Positions 46,315 to 60,726 of a DNA stretch of 64,000 bases are shown in pieces. Made by a program: the position numbers and the translations under genes. Below the pieces are notes generated by a model. The model ran no database searches. It was not told the origin of the DNA and was given only the letters and a program-made list of their open reading frames with translations. Position 1 is the stretch's first letter; each line of letters begins with the position of its first letter. This DNA is from Anabaena sp. FACHB-1237 (GTDB lineage: Bacteria; Cyanobacteriota; Cyanobacteriia; Cyanobacteriales; Nostocaceae): assembly GCF_014696225.1 (NCBI RefSeq), contig NZ_JACJPV010000004.1:124001-188000 (forward strand). Direction: 5' to 3'.

Positions 46315-46777
46315 ATTTTATTACGTTATTCATTATAACACAGATCATAGTGATAATGTCAAGGAGGTGAGCAAAAAAATTAAGTTCCCAACTTTTTGCA
46401 TAAGTTGTTATACTAAAAATTACTATTTCTGCGATTTATTTCTCCAGGGTTGCCCAGAAAATATGCACTTAAACTTACCAATTACCGCACAAACTAATAA
46501 CTGTAAAAACCTATTGCGGGTATAGGGGGAGGGCTTGATATATTTTGTGGTCTGCCAGTCCACTCGTGACCGTCGTCCTGATGGTAAAATATTTTTAGAT
46601 TTTTAATTATTTTTAGATTTTTAATTATTTTTAGATTTTTAATGAAAAGTCGGCAGCTTTACTTCTGCCAGAATACACACTCAATTCTCCTCAAGGTTTT
46701 TTCGACTTTTTCAGCAACCCCTAATTAAAAAAACAGGCAAGATGCCTGTTACACAATATTGTACTATGTTTTATTAT
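46315..46777. other. intergenic between tRNA-Ala and the Rpn array
   Basis: Contains three tandem copies of an 18-bp unit (46591-46643, unit atttttagatttttaatt), a short string gccagtccactcgtgaccgt of unknown nature, and the first caggcaagatgcctg palindrome (46734-46748), which belongs to the tandem array. No gene. Confidence 0.5.
46591..46643. repeat. three tandem 18-bp AT-rich units
   Basis: Units begin at 46591, 46609 and 46627, each atttttagatttttaat plus one base; the last is one base short. Non-coding. Confidence 0.8.
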
Positions 46778-47776
46778 TTAATTTTCTCCAGATGAATTTT
46801 GTTTAATTAATTCGGCAAATTCTCCCACTGAATTAACGCTAATTGTTTCTAAAATTAACCTTTCCAGTAGAGCGATATCCTCAATTTCGTTAATAGTTGT
46901 GAGGAGATTTTTAGGAAGTTCACCAAATCTTTTTTGTAGTAATTTGATGATATGTTGTTGAGTGCTTGTTTTCTGACCTCTTTCCTGACCTATTGCTTGA
47001 CCTATTGCTTGACCTATTGCTTGACCACGTTCCATAGCGCGTCTTTCAATGTTACTTAATAACGGCATTTTTCGTTGCTCCTCATATTCATTTATTTTTC
47101 CTTCAAAACTGCTTTGCAATTCTGGTGGTAATGTCATCATTAAATCAATGACTTTATATAAATCCACTATTTCTTTACGATTATAACCTCTTTCATAAAG
47201 TAATCGTGATAATTGCCATTTCCATTGTTCTCTTGCGCTTAAATTACTAGTGGTGGCTTTGGTTTTTAAATGTGCCATTACTACTATAGCAAATATATTC
47301 TGATTTTGCTCTAGTTCTGACCATTGATAGTCTAGTAGTTTCACGATACTAAACTTCATGGTTACTTTACTTTCTCCCATGCCATATTCATAACTATTTG
47401 GTCGCCATGTTTTGCTTTCATCTCCTAATATTGCTAAACTGATTACTGGTTTTTGATATAGGTCAAATGCTCTATAGTTATAGATATACATTCTTAATGG
47501 AAATTCTTTGTCATATTGACTTTGTACTTCCAAGTGAATTAATATCCATACTTCTTGTCCATCTAATAGCCACACTTTAAATAGTTTGTCTGCATGGCGT
47601 TTTTCTGTTTGTGATGATGCGGTAATTTGTTCTAGTTCTTTGTCTAGGGGTATTGGTGTTTTTTCCCAGTTTATTTGTTTATGGATATGGGGATAAAAGA
47701 ATAATAGAAATGATTCAAAGTAGTCTCCTATTACTTCTTTCCATGTTTCGTCATAATTTGCTGTTATCTCTGTCAT
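46778..47776 (-). CDS. Rpn/PD-(D/E)XK nuclease-family protein with DUF4351, array copy 1
   Basis: 332 residues from MTEITANYDETWKEV; an earlier in-frame ATG (47812) lies inside the repeat palindrome and is unlikely. The N-terminal nuclease-like domain has YFESFLLFFYP, RHADKLFKVWLLDG with the acidic residue, and ILIHLEVQSQYDKEFPLRMY with the E-x-Q motif. The C-terminal DUF4351 helical domain is IIKLLQKRFGELPKNLL onwards. A GQAI tract (three repeats of 12 bp) lies between them. The family resembles transposase-like recombination-promoting nucleases. This copy ends ELIKQNSSGEN, unlike copies 2 and 3. Confidence 0.85.
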   Translation of the reverse strand: MTEITANYDETWKEVIGDYFESFLLFFYPHIHKQINWEKTPIPLDKELEQITASSQTEKRHADKLFKVWLLDGQEVWILIHLEVQSQYDKEFPLRMYIYNYRAFDLYQKPVISLAILGDESKTWRPNSYEYGMGESKVTMKFSIVKLLDYQWSELEQNQNIFAIVVMAHLKTKATTSNLSAREQWKWQLSRLLYERGYNRKEIVDLYKVIDLMMTLPPELQSSFEGKINEYEEQRKMPLLSNIERRAMERGQAIGQAIGQAIGQERGQKTSTQQHIIKLLQKRFGELPKNLLTTINEIEDIALLERLILETISVNSVGEFAELIKQNSSGEN

Positions 47777-47849
47777 TTTTTTGGTGCGATTTTTAATTAA
47801 AAAAACAGGCAAGATGCCTGTTACACAATATTGTACTATGTTTTATTAT

Positions 47850-48848
47850 TTAATTTTCTTCAGATGGATTTTGTTTAATTAATTCGGCAAATTCTCCCAC
47901 TGAATTAACACTAATTGTTTCTAAGTGTAGATATTCTAGCAAAGACATATCCTCAATTTCGTTAATAGTTGTGAGGAGATTTTTAGGAAGTTCACCAAAT
48001 CTTTTTTGTAGTAATTTGATGATATGTTGTTGAGTGCTTGTTTTCTGACCTTTTTCCTGACCTATTGCTTGACCTATTGCTTGACCTATTGCTTGACCAC
48101 GTTCCATAGCGCGTCTTTCAATGTTACTTAATAACGGCATTTTTCGTTGCTCCTCATATTCATTTATTTTTCCTTCAAAACTGCTTTGCAATTCTGGTGG
48201 TAATGTCATCATTAAATCAATGACTTTATATAAATCCACTATTTCTTTACGATTATAACCTCTTTCATAAAGTAATCGTGATAATTGCCATTTCCATTGT
48301 TCTCTTGCGCTTAAATTACTAGTGGTGGCTTTGGTTTTTAAATGTGCCATTACTACTATAGCAAATATATTCTGATTTTGCTCTAGTTCTGACCATTGAT
48401 AGTCTAGTAGTTTCACGATACTAAACTTCATGGTTACTTTACTTTCTCCCATGCCATATTCATAACTATTTGGTCGCCATGTTTTGCTTTCATCTCCTAA
48501 TATTGCTAAACTGATTACTGGTTTTTGATATAGGTCAAATGCTCTATAGTTATAGATATACATTCTTAATGGAAATTCTTTGTCATATTGACTTTGTACT
48601 TCCAAGTGAATTAATATCCATACTTCTTGTCCATCTAATAGCCACACTTTAAATAGTTTGTCTGCATGGCGTTTTTCTGTTTGTGATGATGCGGTAATTT
48701 GTTCTAGTTCTTTGTCTAGGGGTATTGGTGTTTTTTCCCAGTTTATTTGTTTATGGATATGGGGATAAAAGAATAATAGAAATGATTCAAAGTAGTCTCC
48801 TATTACTTCTTTCCATGTTTCGTCATAATTTGCTGTTATCTCTGTCAT
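47850..48848 (-). CDS. Rpn/PD-(D/E)XK nuclease-family protein with DUF4351, array copy 2
   Basis: 332 residues, identical to copy 1 over the nuclease domain and the triple GQAI tract except for one Lys (GQEKGQK). Its last 40 residues differ (EDMSLLEYLHLETISVNS, then ELIKQNPSEEN) and match copy 3 instead. So it is a mosaic: front like copy 1, tail like copy 3, as expected from unequal crossing over or gene conversion. All catalytic residues are present, so it may be active. Start chosen as for copy 1. Confidence 0.85.
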   Translation of the reverse strand: MTEITANYDETWKEVIGDYFESFLLFFYPHIHKQINWEKTPIPLDKELEQITASSQTEKRHADKLFKVWLLDGQEVWILIHLEVQSQYDKEFPLRMYIYNYRAFDLYQKPVISLAILGDESKTWRPNSYEYGMGESKVTMKFSIVKLLDYQWSELEQNQNIFAIVVMAHLKTKATTSNLSAREQWKWQLSRLLYERGYNRKEIVDLYKVIDLMMTLPPELQSSFEGKINEYEEQRKMPLLSNIERRAMERGQAIGQAIGQAIGQEKGQKTSTQQHIIKLLQKRFGELPKNLLTTINEIEDMSLLEYLHLETISVNSVGEFAELIKQNPSEEN

Positions 48849-48921
48849 TTTTTTGGTGCGATTTTTAATTAAAAAAACAGGCAAGATGCCTGTTACACAA
48901 TATTGTACTATGTTTTATTAT

Positions 48922-49347
48922 TTAATTTTCTTCAGATGGATTTTGTTTAATTAATTCGGCAAATTCTCCCACTGAATTAACACTAATTGTTTCTAAGTGT
49001 AGATATTCTAGCAAAGACATATCCTCAATTTCGTTAATAGTTGTGAGGAGATTTTTAGGAAGTTCACCAAATCTTTTTTGTAGTAATTTGATGATATGTT
49101 GTTGAGTGCTTGTTTTCTGACCTCTTTCCTGACCTATTGCTTGACCACGTTCCATAGCGCGTCTTTCAATGTTACTTAATAACGGCATTTTTCGTTGCTC
49201 CTCATATTCATTTATTTTTCCTTCAAAACTGCTTTGTAATTCTGGTGGTAATGTCATCATTAAATCAATGACTTTATATAAATCCACTATTTCTTTACGA
49301 TTATAACCTCTTTCATAAAGTAATTGTGATAATTGCCATTTCCATTG
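48922..49347 (-). pseudogene. truncated third copy of the Rpn/DUF4351 gene
   Basis: It retains only the C-terminal 140 codons, from QWKWQLSQLLYERGYNRKEI to ELIKQNPSEEN; the nuclease domain is missing. The GQAI tract has a single unit here instead of three. An internal ATG at 49287 opens a 121-codon frame, but without the catalytic domain it would not be a nuclease. It probably represents the ancestral end of the array or a deletion product. Confidence 0.85.
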
Positions 49348-56820: not shown

Positions 56821-56910
56821 AGGCATCTTGCCTGTTAGTAAAATAGGCATCTTGCCTGTTAGCAAAATAGGCATCTTGCCTGTTAGCAAAATAGGCATCT
56901 TGCCTGCTTA
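56821..56910. repeat. four tandem 24-bp units with the palindrome aggcatcttgcct
   Basis: Units start at 56821, 56845, 56869 and 56893; consensus aggcatcttgcctgttag, then yaaaat. Each unit has a self-complementary core. The array begins 24 bp before the pdxA start codon, so it sits in the leader or promoter. Confidence 0.85.
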
Positions 56911-59292: not shown

Positions 59293-60726
59293 TTAGTGTA
59301 TAGGAATATTTTTGTTTTCATTAATCACATATTCCTGAAAAATACCATCTACACTCAACATCATTTCCTCATCTTCTAACTGTTTGATTATATAACGTTG
59401 CCGTAATGACTCTAAACCATTGACTATATCTGATAAAGTAAGATGTTCTTGTAAATTTTGTTGCAAATATTGTTTTAAGTCTTGCTTGGATATAGGTTGA
59501 GCAAATTTACTCATTTCTAAAACTATTTTTTGTTCTATAGTTGATAACCTATTAAATAATTGACTACAGTAAAAGTTAATATCCTTGGTAATTACTAAAC
59601 TATTTTCTGTAATATTTTCTTTTAAAAATTCACTGATATTACCACCATATAAATTTCTGATTAAACTAGCAATTTCTTCTAAATAAATGGGATTACCATG
59701 ATATAGTTTAATTAGTTCTAACCAGTGATTTTCTGTAGTTACTTTTAACCCTAAATTATTGAGAACATTAATATTATATAATCCTGATAATTCCAAACAT
59801 TGATATGATTTATTTAAATTGTTATTTAAGTTAGATAATTCTTGATTTAAACAGTTAAATTCTGATGGTTGTTCTTGACTAATTAAAATAATATTACTTT
59901 GATGTGGAAATTCTGTCATCATTTGCAAAAACTGTTGATAGTCTTGATATTCATGTTGATATTTTCCCGCAAATTCACCATTAGTAAATAAACTTTGGAC
60001 ATCATCAAAAATAATTAAACATTTGCGTTGTTTCAATAATTGCAAAAATCGGTATGTTAAAGACTTTTCTGAATTTTGTGAATGTTGATTAATAATTCTT
60101 GCTAAAAACTCATTTACAGAACAGGGATATATTTTTAAATTGTTCCAAATAATTAAATCAAACTTTTGTAAATTGATATCTACAAATCTTTTGACTAAGG
60201 TGCTTTTACCAACTCCTTTTAATCCTAATACATTAATAATAGAAATATGTTCATCAACATTATCATTAAATATCCACTTATTTAATATTTCTAATTCTGC
60301 TTCTCTTCCATAAAAACATTTGACTCTTGGTGCTAATTCTAAATCATGTTCATATTCTTGAGGTTTATTTTTGGGTTTCTCTATATTATTTGTTTGCTGA
60401 TTTTTTTGGTTACTTGGTTGCTGACTAGGACACAAATTAATATTATGATTCCCATAATTAACAATAGAGTTTGTAATTCTTTCAATAGTCCAACAAAAAT
60501 TAGATTTATTAACTTCCTCCCCTAATTTATCAGATAAAAGTTTAAATAACTTCCTACTTTCATCACCAATATAACCTTCATCATATTCATAAATATCAGC
60601 AATTTGTTTATAAGTTTTACCTTTAAATAGTTCCTCAATAATTCTTTTTTGTAAATCATCTAAATGTTTTTCAGTTTCCGTAAATACCAAAGTATCTACA
60701 AATTGCAAAATTTCTGTAACATTCAT
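59293..60726 (-). CDS. STAND NTPase with vMAP-like N-terminal HTH and NB-ARC core
   Basis: 477 residues. The N-terminal 80 residues (TETEKHLDDLQKRIIEELFK, GKTYKQIADIYEYDEGYIGD) are the helix-turn-helix-like module common on cyanobacterial STAND proteins. After a Gln/Asn-rich linker comes NB-ARC: Walker A GLKGVGKST (168-176), Walker B LIIFDDVQS (Asp 241-242), and GNPIYLEEIA (GxP motif). The winged helix ends the protein, so the usual C-terminal sensor repeats are absent. STAND proteins act as switch ATPases in signalling and phage defence. It is divergent from the methyltransferase at 60944. Confidence 0.82.
   Translation of the reverse strand: MNVTEILQFVDTLVFTETEKHLDDLQKRIIEELFKGKTYKQIADIYEYDEGYIGDESRKLFKLLSDKLGEEVNKSNFCWTIERITNSIVNYGNHNINLCPSQQPSNQKNQQTNNIEKPKNKPQEYEHDLELAPRVKCFYGREAELEILNKWIFNDNVDEHISIINVLGLKGVGKSTLVKRFVDINLQKFDLIIWNNLKIYPCSVNEFLARIINQHSQNSEKSLTYRFLQLLKQRKCLIIFDDVQSLFTNGEFAGKYQHEYQDYQQFLQMMTEFPHQSNIILISQEQPSEFNCLNQELSNLNNNLNKSYQCLELSGLYNINVLNNLGLKVTTENHWLELIKLYHGNPIYLEEIASLIRNLYGGNISEFLKENITENSLVITKDINFYCSQLFNRLSTIEQKIVLEMSKFAQPISKQDLKQYLQQNLQEHLTLSDIVNGLESLRQRYIIKQLEDEEMMLSVDGIFQEYVINENKNIPIH

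Follow-up and report, generated by a model that had tools for sequence, protein, structure and literature searches.

A tandem array of three related units in the genome of Anabaena sp. FACHB-1237 raises the question of how units with identical spacing came to be mosaics of one another, and of what is encoded by the unit that has no nuclease domain. The array was examined within a stretch of 64,000 nucleotides (contig NZ_JACJPV010000004.1, positions 124,001 to 188,000, forward strand), called the window here, and coordinates are those of the window. The array is probably an Rpn toxin-antitoxin locus of the gene-within-gene kind, accompanied by a free-standing antitoxin copy and a freshly formed hybrid gene. 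Passages of Zhong et al. (2023, PMC10327210) describe RpnL as a toxic nuclease and RpnS as its internally started antitoxin, with four-residue repeats in the dimer helix, and also describe free-standing RpnS genes.

Organisation of the array

The source genome comprises 4.65 Mb in 95 contigs, and the array lies on the minus strand, flanked by a tRNA-Ala gene and a WD40 gene. The three units start at 46722, 47794 and 48866, all on the minus strand, giving spacings of 1072 and 1072 bp. Comparison of the sequence with itself at an offset of 1072 gave a match of 1071 bp with 0 mismatches (46981–48051), bounded by the last difference between units 1 and 2 at 46980 and the first difference between units 2 and 3 at 48052. 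This match is plainly beyond chance and is what a single 1072-bp duplication should leave. In both unit 1 and unit 2 there is one gene of 332 amino acids, and the two have the entire front and a triple 12-bp GQAI tract in common, while unit 3 consists of the last 141 codons only. The tail of units 2 and 3 carries NPSEEN and that of unit 1 NSSGEN. Unit 3 has a single GQAI, and its match to the other units ends at 49347, short of the nuclease domain. The exact spacing, the front common to copies 1 and 2, the tail common to copies 2 and 3, and the reduced third copy had all been proposed in an initial annotation made from the sequence, and each was confirmed by the self-match and the alignment.

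The full-length start kept in relatives is the ATG at 47776 in unit 1 and at 48848 in unit 2, with MTEITANYD, and not the upstream TTG of the mechanical open reading frame (ORF) list. The repeat scan of the window, which covered inverted repeats of 20 nt or longer, found no such pair bounding the units. The features of the three units are as follows.

46778..47776, minus strand: unit 1 full-length gene, RpnL-like, with nuclease domain, tail type 1 and three GQAI repeats (ORF; ATG and MTEITANYD kept in relatives)
47850..48848, minus strand: unit 2 full-length hybrid gene, with the head and repeat tract of unit 1 and the tail of unit 3 (ORF; self-match; three-way alignment)
48922..49347, minus strand: unit 3 headless copy, 141-residue open frame without nuclease domain (self-match; profile search)
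46974..47026, minus strand: unit 1 tract of 12-bp repeats, GQAI three times (repeat scan)
48046..48098, minus strand: unit 2 tract of 12-bp repeats, GQAI three times (repeat scan)

An internal start for a predicted antitoxin

In each unit an internal start, MPLLSN, stands behind the motif GAGGAG, and the sequence GAGGAGCAACGAAAA-ATG (M237) stands ahead of the repeat tract. The corresponding features are given below.

46778..47068, minus strand: unit 1 predicted internal antitoxin, RpnS-like, 96 residues (GAGGAG and ATG; comparative test)
47078..47083, minus strand: Shine-Dalgarno-like GAGGAG of the unit 1 internal start (sequence; comparative test)
47850..48140, minus strand: unit 2 predicted internal antitoxin, 96 residues (internal-start comparison)
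48150..48155, minus strand: Shine-Dalgarno-like GAGGAG of the unit 2 internal start (sequence; comparison)
48922..49188, minus strand: unit 3 predicted free-standing RpnS, 88 residues, one GQAI (internal-start comparison; model with a pLDDT of 88.4)
49198..49203, minus strand: Shine-Dalgarno-like GAGGAG of unit 3 (sequence; comparison)

Conservation of this start was measured in 97 distinct homologous segments drawn from 109 loci, the three of the window included. The aligned codon was ATG in 93 and GTG in 4, so that all 97 carried a start codon, and two further aligned rows (one pseudogene, L010/L013) had a gap at this position. The Shine-Dalgarno (SD) site was scored in a set of 51 full genes, reduced from 77 by discarding those more than 85% identical. 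An SD match of 6 or more nucleotides preceded the internal start in 37 of the 51. Such a match preceded 138 of the 15734 remaining codons, and 1 of 659 when these were restricted to ATG, GTG or TTG; at 4 or more nucleotides the values were 51 of 51 for the internal start and 45 of 659 for these start-like codons. Glutamate codons under the SD were GAG 77 times and GAA 40 times, against 271 and 1286 elsewhere, and the residues encoded over the site vary (EEQRK, QEERK, EKELN, EEVQR) while the SD persists. At the full-length start no SD match of 3 or more nucleotides was present in 29 of 45 testable genes.

The GQAI repeats begin at residue 15 after the internal methionine, with 3, 3 and 1 copies in units 1, 2 and 3. 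The length of the first helix, measured from the internal methionine to a conserved R(F), was 27+4k residues in 80 of 82 RpnS sequences, the exceptions being L005:2215-2472 and L087:1655-1927. These 82 were taken from 91 distinct sequences, and the nine left out also fit when judged by the conserved motif. Under a stricter count of the motif, 80 of 82 rows with a single motif conformed and nine rows were ambiguous.

A ribosome-binding site and start codon ahead of the C-terminal domain are thus present as a sequence signature in all three units and in relatives, and the pattern fits that of the published intragenic antitoxin RpnS. The internal start had been missed by the initial annotation, and it changes what unit 3 would be, namely a free-standing RpnS gene. 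By homology, units 1 and 2 would encode a PD-(D/E)XK-like nuclease (RpnL) that is predicted to be active and toxic. A second product would be translated from inside these units, starting at MPLLSN from a strong SD site, and would consist of the C-terminal helical domain alone (RpnS). This RpnS is expected to dimerise via its first helix, whose length is set in four-residue GQAI steps, and to block the nuclease, and the locus may have a role in phage defence. Unit 3 would be a headless copy left with the RpnS gene only.

Origin of the hybrid unit 2

The three-way alignment contained 15 sites at 46788–46874 where unit 2 agrees with unit 3, followed by a 24-bp indel and two sites (47117 and 47205) where unit 2 agrees with unit 1. 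This order of markers places one crossover within 46875–46985, and a single unequal crossover in this interval of 111 bp accounts for every shared marker. The tails of units 1 and 2 differ at 16 positions, which are the 15 where unit 3 agrees with unit 2 and one substitution private to unit 2 at 48052 (46980 in unit 1). The chance of an equally clean split with 18 markers in random order was 0.0025, the adjacent sites of the patch probably not being independent. The unequal crossing over put forward in the initial annotation is in agreement with this result.

46875..46985 in unit 1 coordinates (47947–48057 in unit 2), no strand: crossover interval that made unit 2 (three-way alignment)
46838..46874, minus strand: patch holding 13 of the 15 sites at which the tail of unit 1 departs from those of units 2 and 3, located on helix 3 of the RpnS model, residues 57–66 of the unit 3 RpnS (alignment; model)

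Given the single-crossover fit, the parent was most simply a two-unit array in which a full gene (A) stood beside a headless copy (B), and the two would already have differed in repeat number (3 and 1) and in the 37-bp patch with 13 differences. An older tandem of A and B would have come first, after which B lost its head and the helix-3 patch and repeat number diverged. Within the RpnS part a single recent unequal crossover, probably by RecA-type recombination as judged by homology, would then have given the order B, hybrid (A head and B tail), A. The patch of unit 1 is closest to the tails of L032 and L039 (35 and 34 of 42 bases) and that of units 2 and 3 to a degenerate rpn copy of the same genome, the C25 pseudogene L010 (32 of 42 bases), similarities too weak to name a donor. 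An ancestral locus with one or two copies was sought by tblastn in the downstream flanks of gloB (stretches of 6 to 13 kb, 18 relatives) and of the WD40 gene (approximately 4 kb, 12 relatives). No rpn copy was found there, in a collection without a second genome of the source genus.

Family assignment and structure models

Profile matches of the homologues at E≤0.01 (n=44) were to TIGR01784 in 31, Transposase_31 in 13 and DUF4351 in 12. The named records with close homologues are cyanobacterial, mostly Dolichospermum, Anabaena, Nodularia and Sphaerospermopsis, with some Trichodesmium and one Prochloron. The model of unit 1 had a pLDDT of 83.6, and the best match to its residues 2–147 in VIA-align was EndoMS (5gke_A; Z 8.3, rmsd 3.2, 105 aligned residues), followed by further PD-(D/E)XK enzymes at lower Z. 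Residues D45, E83 and Q85, which we take to be catalytic, were invariant in 44 aligned sequences. The RpnS model (pLDDT 88.4) contains a long helix at residues 6–40 and further helices at 45–52, 57–66 and 73–82, and the 13-difference patch of the window maps to the helix at 57–66 of this predicted model.

A number of observations weigh against reading the array as an Rpn toxin-antitoxin locus. Unit 1 scores below the Pfam gathering cut-offs for DUF4351 (20.6 against 25) and Transposase_31 (16.7 against 21), as does unit 3 for DUF4351 (22.7 against 25), and units 1–3 match no NCBIfam Rpn model. PADLOC, with which units 1 and 3 were scanned, gave no match for unit 1 and a weak match of unit 3 to a putative invertase model (E 0.068). 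The Z of 8.3 is near values reached by unrelated models, Foldseek against the PDB gave no match at E≤0.001 for the unit 1 or RpnS model, and the fold and sequence rows returned did not include the solved RpnAS (7TH0), which is not evidence of absence. The SD statistics are drawn from related sequences, so the counts are not independent. Promoter-like sites ahead of unit 3 were no more frequent than in shuffled sequences, with no recognisable promoter, and the repeat number of unit 3 differs from that of units 1 and 2, so that by the specificity rule in passages of PMC10327210 it should not neutralise them. The sub-threshold scores, taken together with the 31 of 44 homologues matching TIGR01784, point to a divergent Rpn branch. 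The Rpn/DUF4351 identity given in the initial annotation therefore holds, via the homologues, for such a branch, and does not hold at threshold for the window's own proteins.

Headless copies in relatives

A census of relatives gave 131 C-terminal segments in 101 loci, some of them overlapping, and 26 of the segments had no nuclease domain just upstream. Three of the 26 were unit 3 itself in overlapping loci and two were one pseudogene, leaving 21. An ORF of at least 75 residues with an SD start was present in 11 of these 21 (L015 and L040 being identical, and L032 a split full gene) and absent from ten; two headless copies beyond the census, L043 and L045, were found by a second script. Headless copies of this kind retain the SD and ATG. 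In L042 the frame is shifted upstream of the internal ATG and open from it on, and in L045 the homology starts 9 codons ahead of the internal ATG. Intact headless copies in relatives lie 3' of the full gene, whereas unit 3 of the window lies 5'. At L041, L100 and L101 the headless RpnS of one genome corresponds to the full-gene tail of another, in one case with identical protein sequence.

Helix lengths were compared at 15 hand-picked loci with adjacent copies, with L101 and L109 left out as they contain broken copies. At least one pair differed in 12 of the 15, always by a multiple of 4. Since repeat number is highly variable a mismatch is expected anyway, and the difference between neighbours is not claimed as a sign of selection; it is a prediction about specificity.

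Exchange of the RpnS core among relatives

A group of close homologues from 14 genomes was compared, in which the RpnS core of roughly 90 bp was scored as type X or Y. The nuclease domains of genomes G102 and G079 are 98.2% identical and their RpnS parts 76.8%; for G098 and G052 the values are 97.7% and 78.7%. Profiles of three X/Y pairs gave an identity of 43–67% between about +72 and +161, counted from the internal start, with 81–100% from that start up to this region and 76–100% after it. Upstream flanks common to G102, G128, G039, G079 and G116 are 89–96% identical over their aligned parts, placing the X/Y difference at one locus. For G102 and G039 the synonymous divergence (dS) was 0.081 over the nuclease domain and 0.337 over RpnS; for G102 and G128, which are both type X, the values were 0.151 and 0.103. 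The rise in the X/Y pair and its lack in the X/X pair argue for a recombined core and against selection acting alone.

The X/Y type required 4 changes when placed on the tree of nuclease domains. This is the maximum for four Y rows and not below most shuffles, 1244 of 2000 of which also gave 4. A single clade of Y rows was rejected (p-AU 0.000384) on a tree that is weakly resolved, with 2 of 12 inner branches well supported. Genome G039 has Y in its full gene and X in its headless copy; G072 has the reverse, but its flank does not match. The headless copy of G102 is nearest the full gene of G128 (93.3% against 92.5% for its own, a narrow margin), and that of G128 is nearest the full gene of G102 (93.9% against 88.6%). 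No second Y copy was found in the G039 genome, so the exchange there may stem from a lost copy or an outside source. Part of this pattern would also be expected from differential loss out of an ancestral tandem of X and Y. Among these relatives the antitoxin part has been reassorted repeatedly, and the array of the window captures one such event.

We suggest, tentatively, that headless RpnS copies beside full rpn genes act as a store of cassettes. Homologous recombination would swap the antitoxin and dimerisation core (repeat number, helices 2–3) and leave the nuclease untouched, changing the fit between antitoxin and nuclease. The array of the window would then be half-way, A having received the stored tail with the old version still present.

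The palindrome at the unit junctions

The palindrome CAGGCAAGATGCCTG had been proposed in the initial annotation as the seed of recombination at each junction. It occurs in 71 exact copies genome-wide, 3 in the array and 68 elsewhere, and the reversed pattern used as a control occurs 0 times. The copy in each unit stands 3' of the gene with T residues after it, forming a terminator-like hairpin of −10.5 kcal/mol (two copies folded).

46732..46750, minus strand: terminator-like hairpin of unit 1, dispersed palindrome (motif count; fold)
47804..47822, minus strand: terminator-like hairpin of unit 2 (motif; fold)
48876..48894, minus strand: terminator-like hairpin of unit 3 (motif)

The mapped crossover interval lies within coding sequence and starts 127 bp from the palindrome. 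As the palindrome is a dispersed repeat resembling a terminator and the crossover maps away from it, a role as a specific recombination seed was rejected. The boundary of the older duplication (46722) lies 12 bp outside the palindrome, which could mark the edge of that duplication. The palindrome also forms a 24-bp tandem repeat of 3.6 copies at 56821–56906.

Alternative explanations

An assembly artefact, in which there are fewer real copies than assembled, would be conceivable for an exact repeat of 1071 bp in an assembly of 95 contigs, yet it is improbable given the private base of unit 2 at 48052 and the consistent hybrid structure. Short-read assembly normally collapses repeats, which also counts against it. 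The array could instead be ordinary duplication debris, with unit 3 a pseudogene in decay, unit 2 a neutral duplicate and no selection acting. Broken headless copies elsewhere (L056, L055, L109), rpn fragments with stops on C23, C21, C25 and C34 of the same genome, and the lack of an evident promoter at unit 3 all agree with such decay, which is possible if somewhat doubtful, as unit 3 retains its frame, SD and start and 11 headless segments outside the window have an SD-start ORF of at least 75 residues. Between the solo copies of L037, L040 and L042, moreover, nonsynonymous divergence (dN, 0.10–0.12) is below dS (0.26–0.30), with a ratio higher than in the nuclease domain.

Unit 3 might be a spare antitoxin, cognate to units 1 and 2 and damping them, with which the identity of the unit 3 and unit 2 tails is consistent; downstream RpnS duplicates are known, and one is reported in passages of PMC10327210 to be made in E. 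coli. This function seems unlikely, as unit 3 has one GQAI against three, a single extra repeat abolished neutralisation of RpnC in the experiments described there, and 12 of the 15 selected loci contain a length-mismatched pair. In a further proposal, from the initial annotation, the nuclease would drive its own amplification and the palindrome would serve as the seed. The family owes its name to the promotion of recombination, and self-driven duplication (arrays, repeat changes) is suggested in part of the discussion of PMC10327210. Such self-amplification is nevertheless very improbable here, because the crossover lies within 111 bp of shared coding sequence away from the palindrome, 68 of the 71 palindrome copies are outside the array, and ordinary homologous recombination suffices.

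Comparison with known systems

The toxin-antitoxin reading of the array was compared with what passages of PMC10327210 describe for RpnL and RpnS. Both have a nuclease domain and a C-terminal domain with an internal start, four-residue repeats (8–20 residues after the internal methionine there, residue 15 in the window), free-standing RpnS/DUF4351 genes and tandem-duplication arrays. Loss of rpnS, and an N-terminal part fused with the rpnS region, are also described in those passages. The array of the window differs in belonging to a divergent branch, in having its headless copy 5' of the full genes and in the hybrid unit 2, and in relatives the internal RpnS core is exchanged. The stem 'cyanobacteri' is absent from the main text of PMC10327210, where Synechocystis is named once, for another system. 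The orphan cdiA-CT/cdiI modules of contact-dependent inhibition (CDI) are similar, as described in PMC3150448, in being headless C-terminal modules beside a full gene, with a model of recombination that loads them onto it. The CDI systems are secreted polymorphic toxins with separate immunity genes, whereas the window would exchange the antitoxin and dimerisation domain of an intracellular nuclease. Orphan immunity arrays of the type VI secretion system, as described in PMC5361080, likewise retain immunity genes after effector loss, but effector and immunity genes are separate; both comparisons are analogies only. Among the papers listed by the literature searches, none dealt with the exchange of Rpn tails or with cyanobacterial internal starts of Rpn genes; the majority of subscription journals lay outside the coverage, and the result is not proof of absence.

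Neighbouring features and significance

Three exact 18-bp repeats lie at 46590–46643, immediately to the left of the array. Approximately 10 kb from the array, at 59293–60726, is a gene for an NB-ARC/AAA ATPase protein (NB-ARC 6.4e-08), possibly a STAND-type defence gene.

Rpn genes are widespread toxin-antitoxin and phage-defence genes in which the antitoxin domain varies fast, and published work leaves the origin of this variation open. In the window a single recent crossover that grafted the antitoxin tail of one copy onto the nuclease of another can be read directly, and relatives exchange the same part at one shared locus. The internal-start signature, itself scored in 97 segments and 51 full genes, is extended to a protein family that is represented by homologues in 184 of the 192 genomes sampled from the source's taxonomic family. 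The array gives a glimpse of how toxin-antitoxin gene pairs may change their matching parts, a question that is testable with small constructs.

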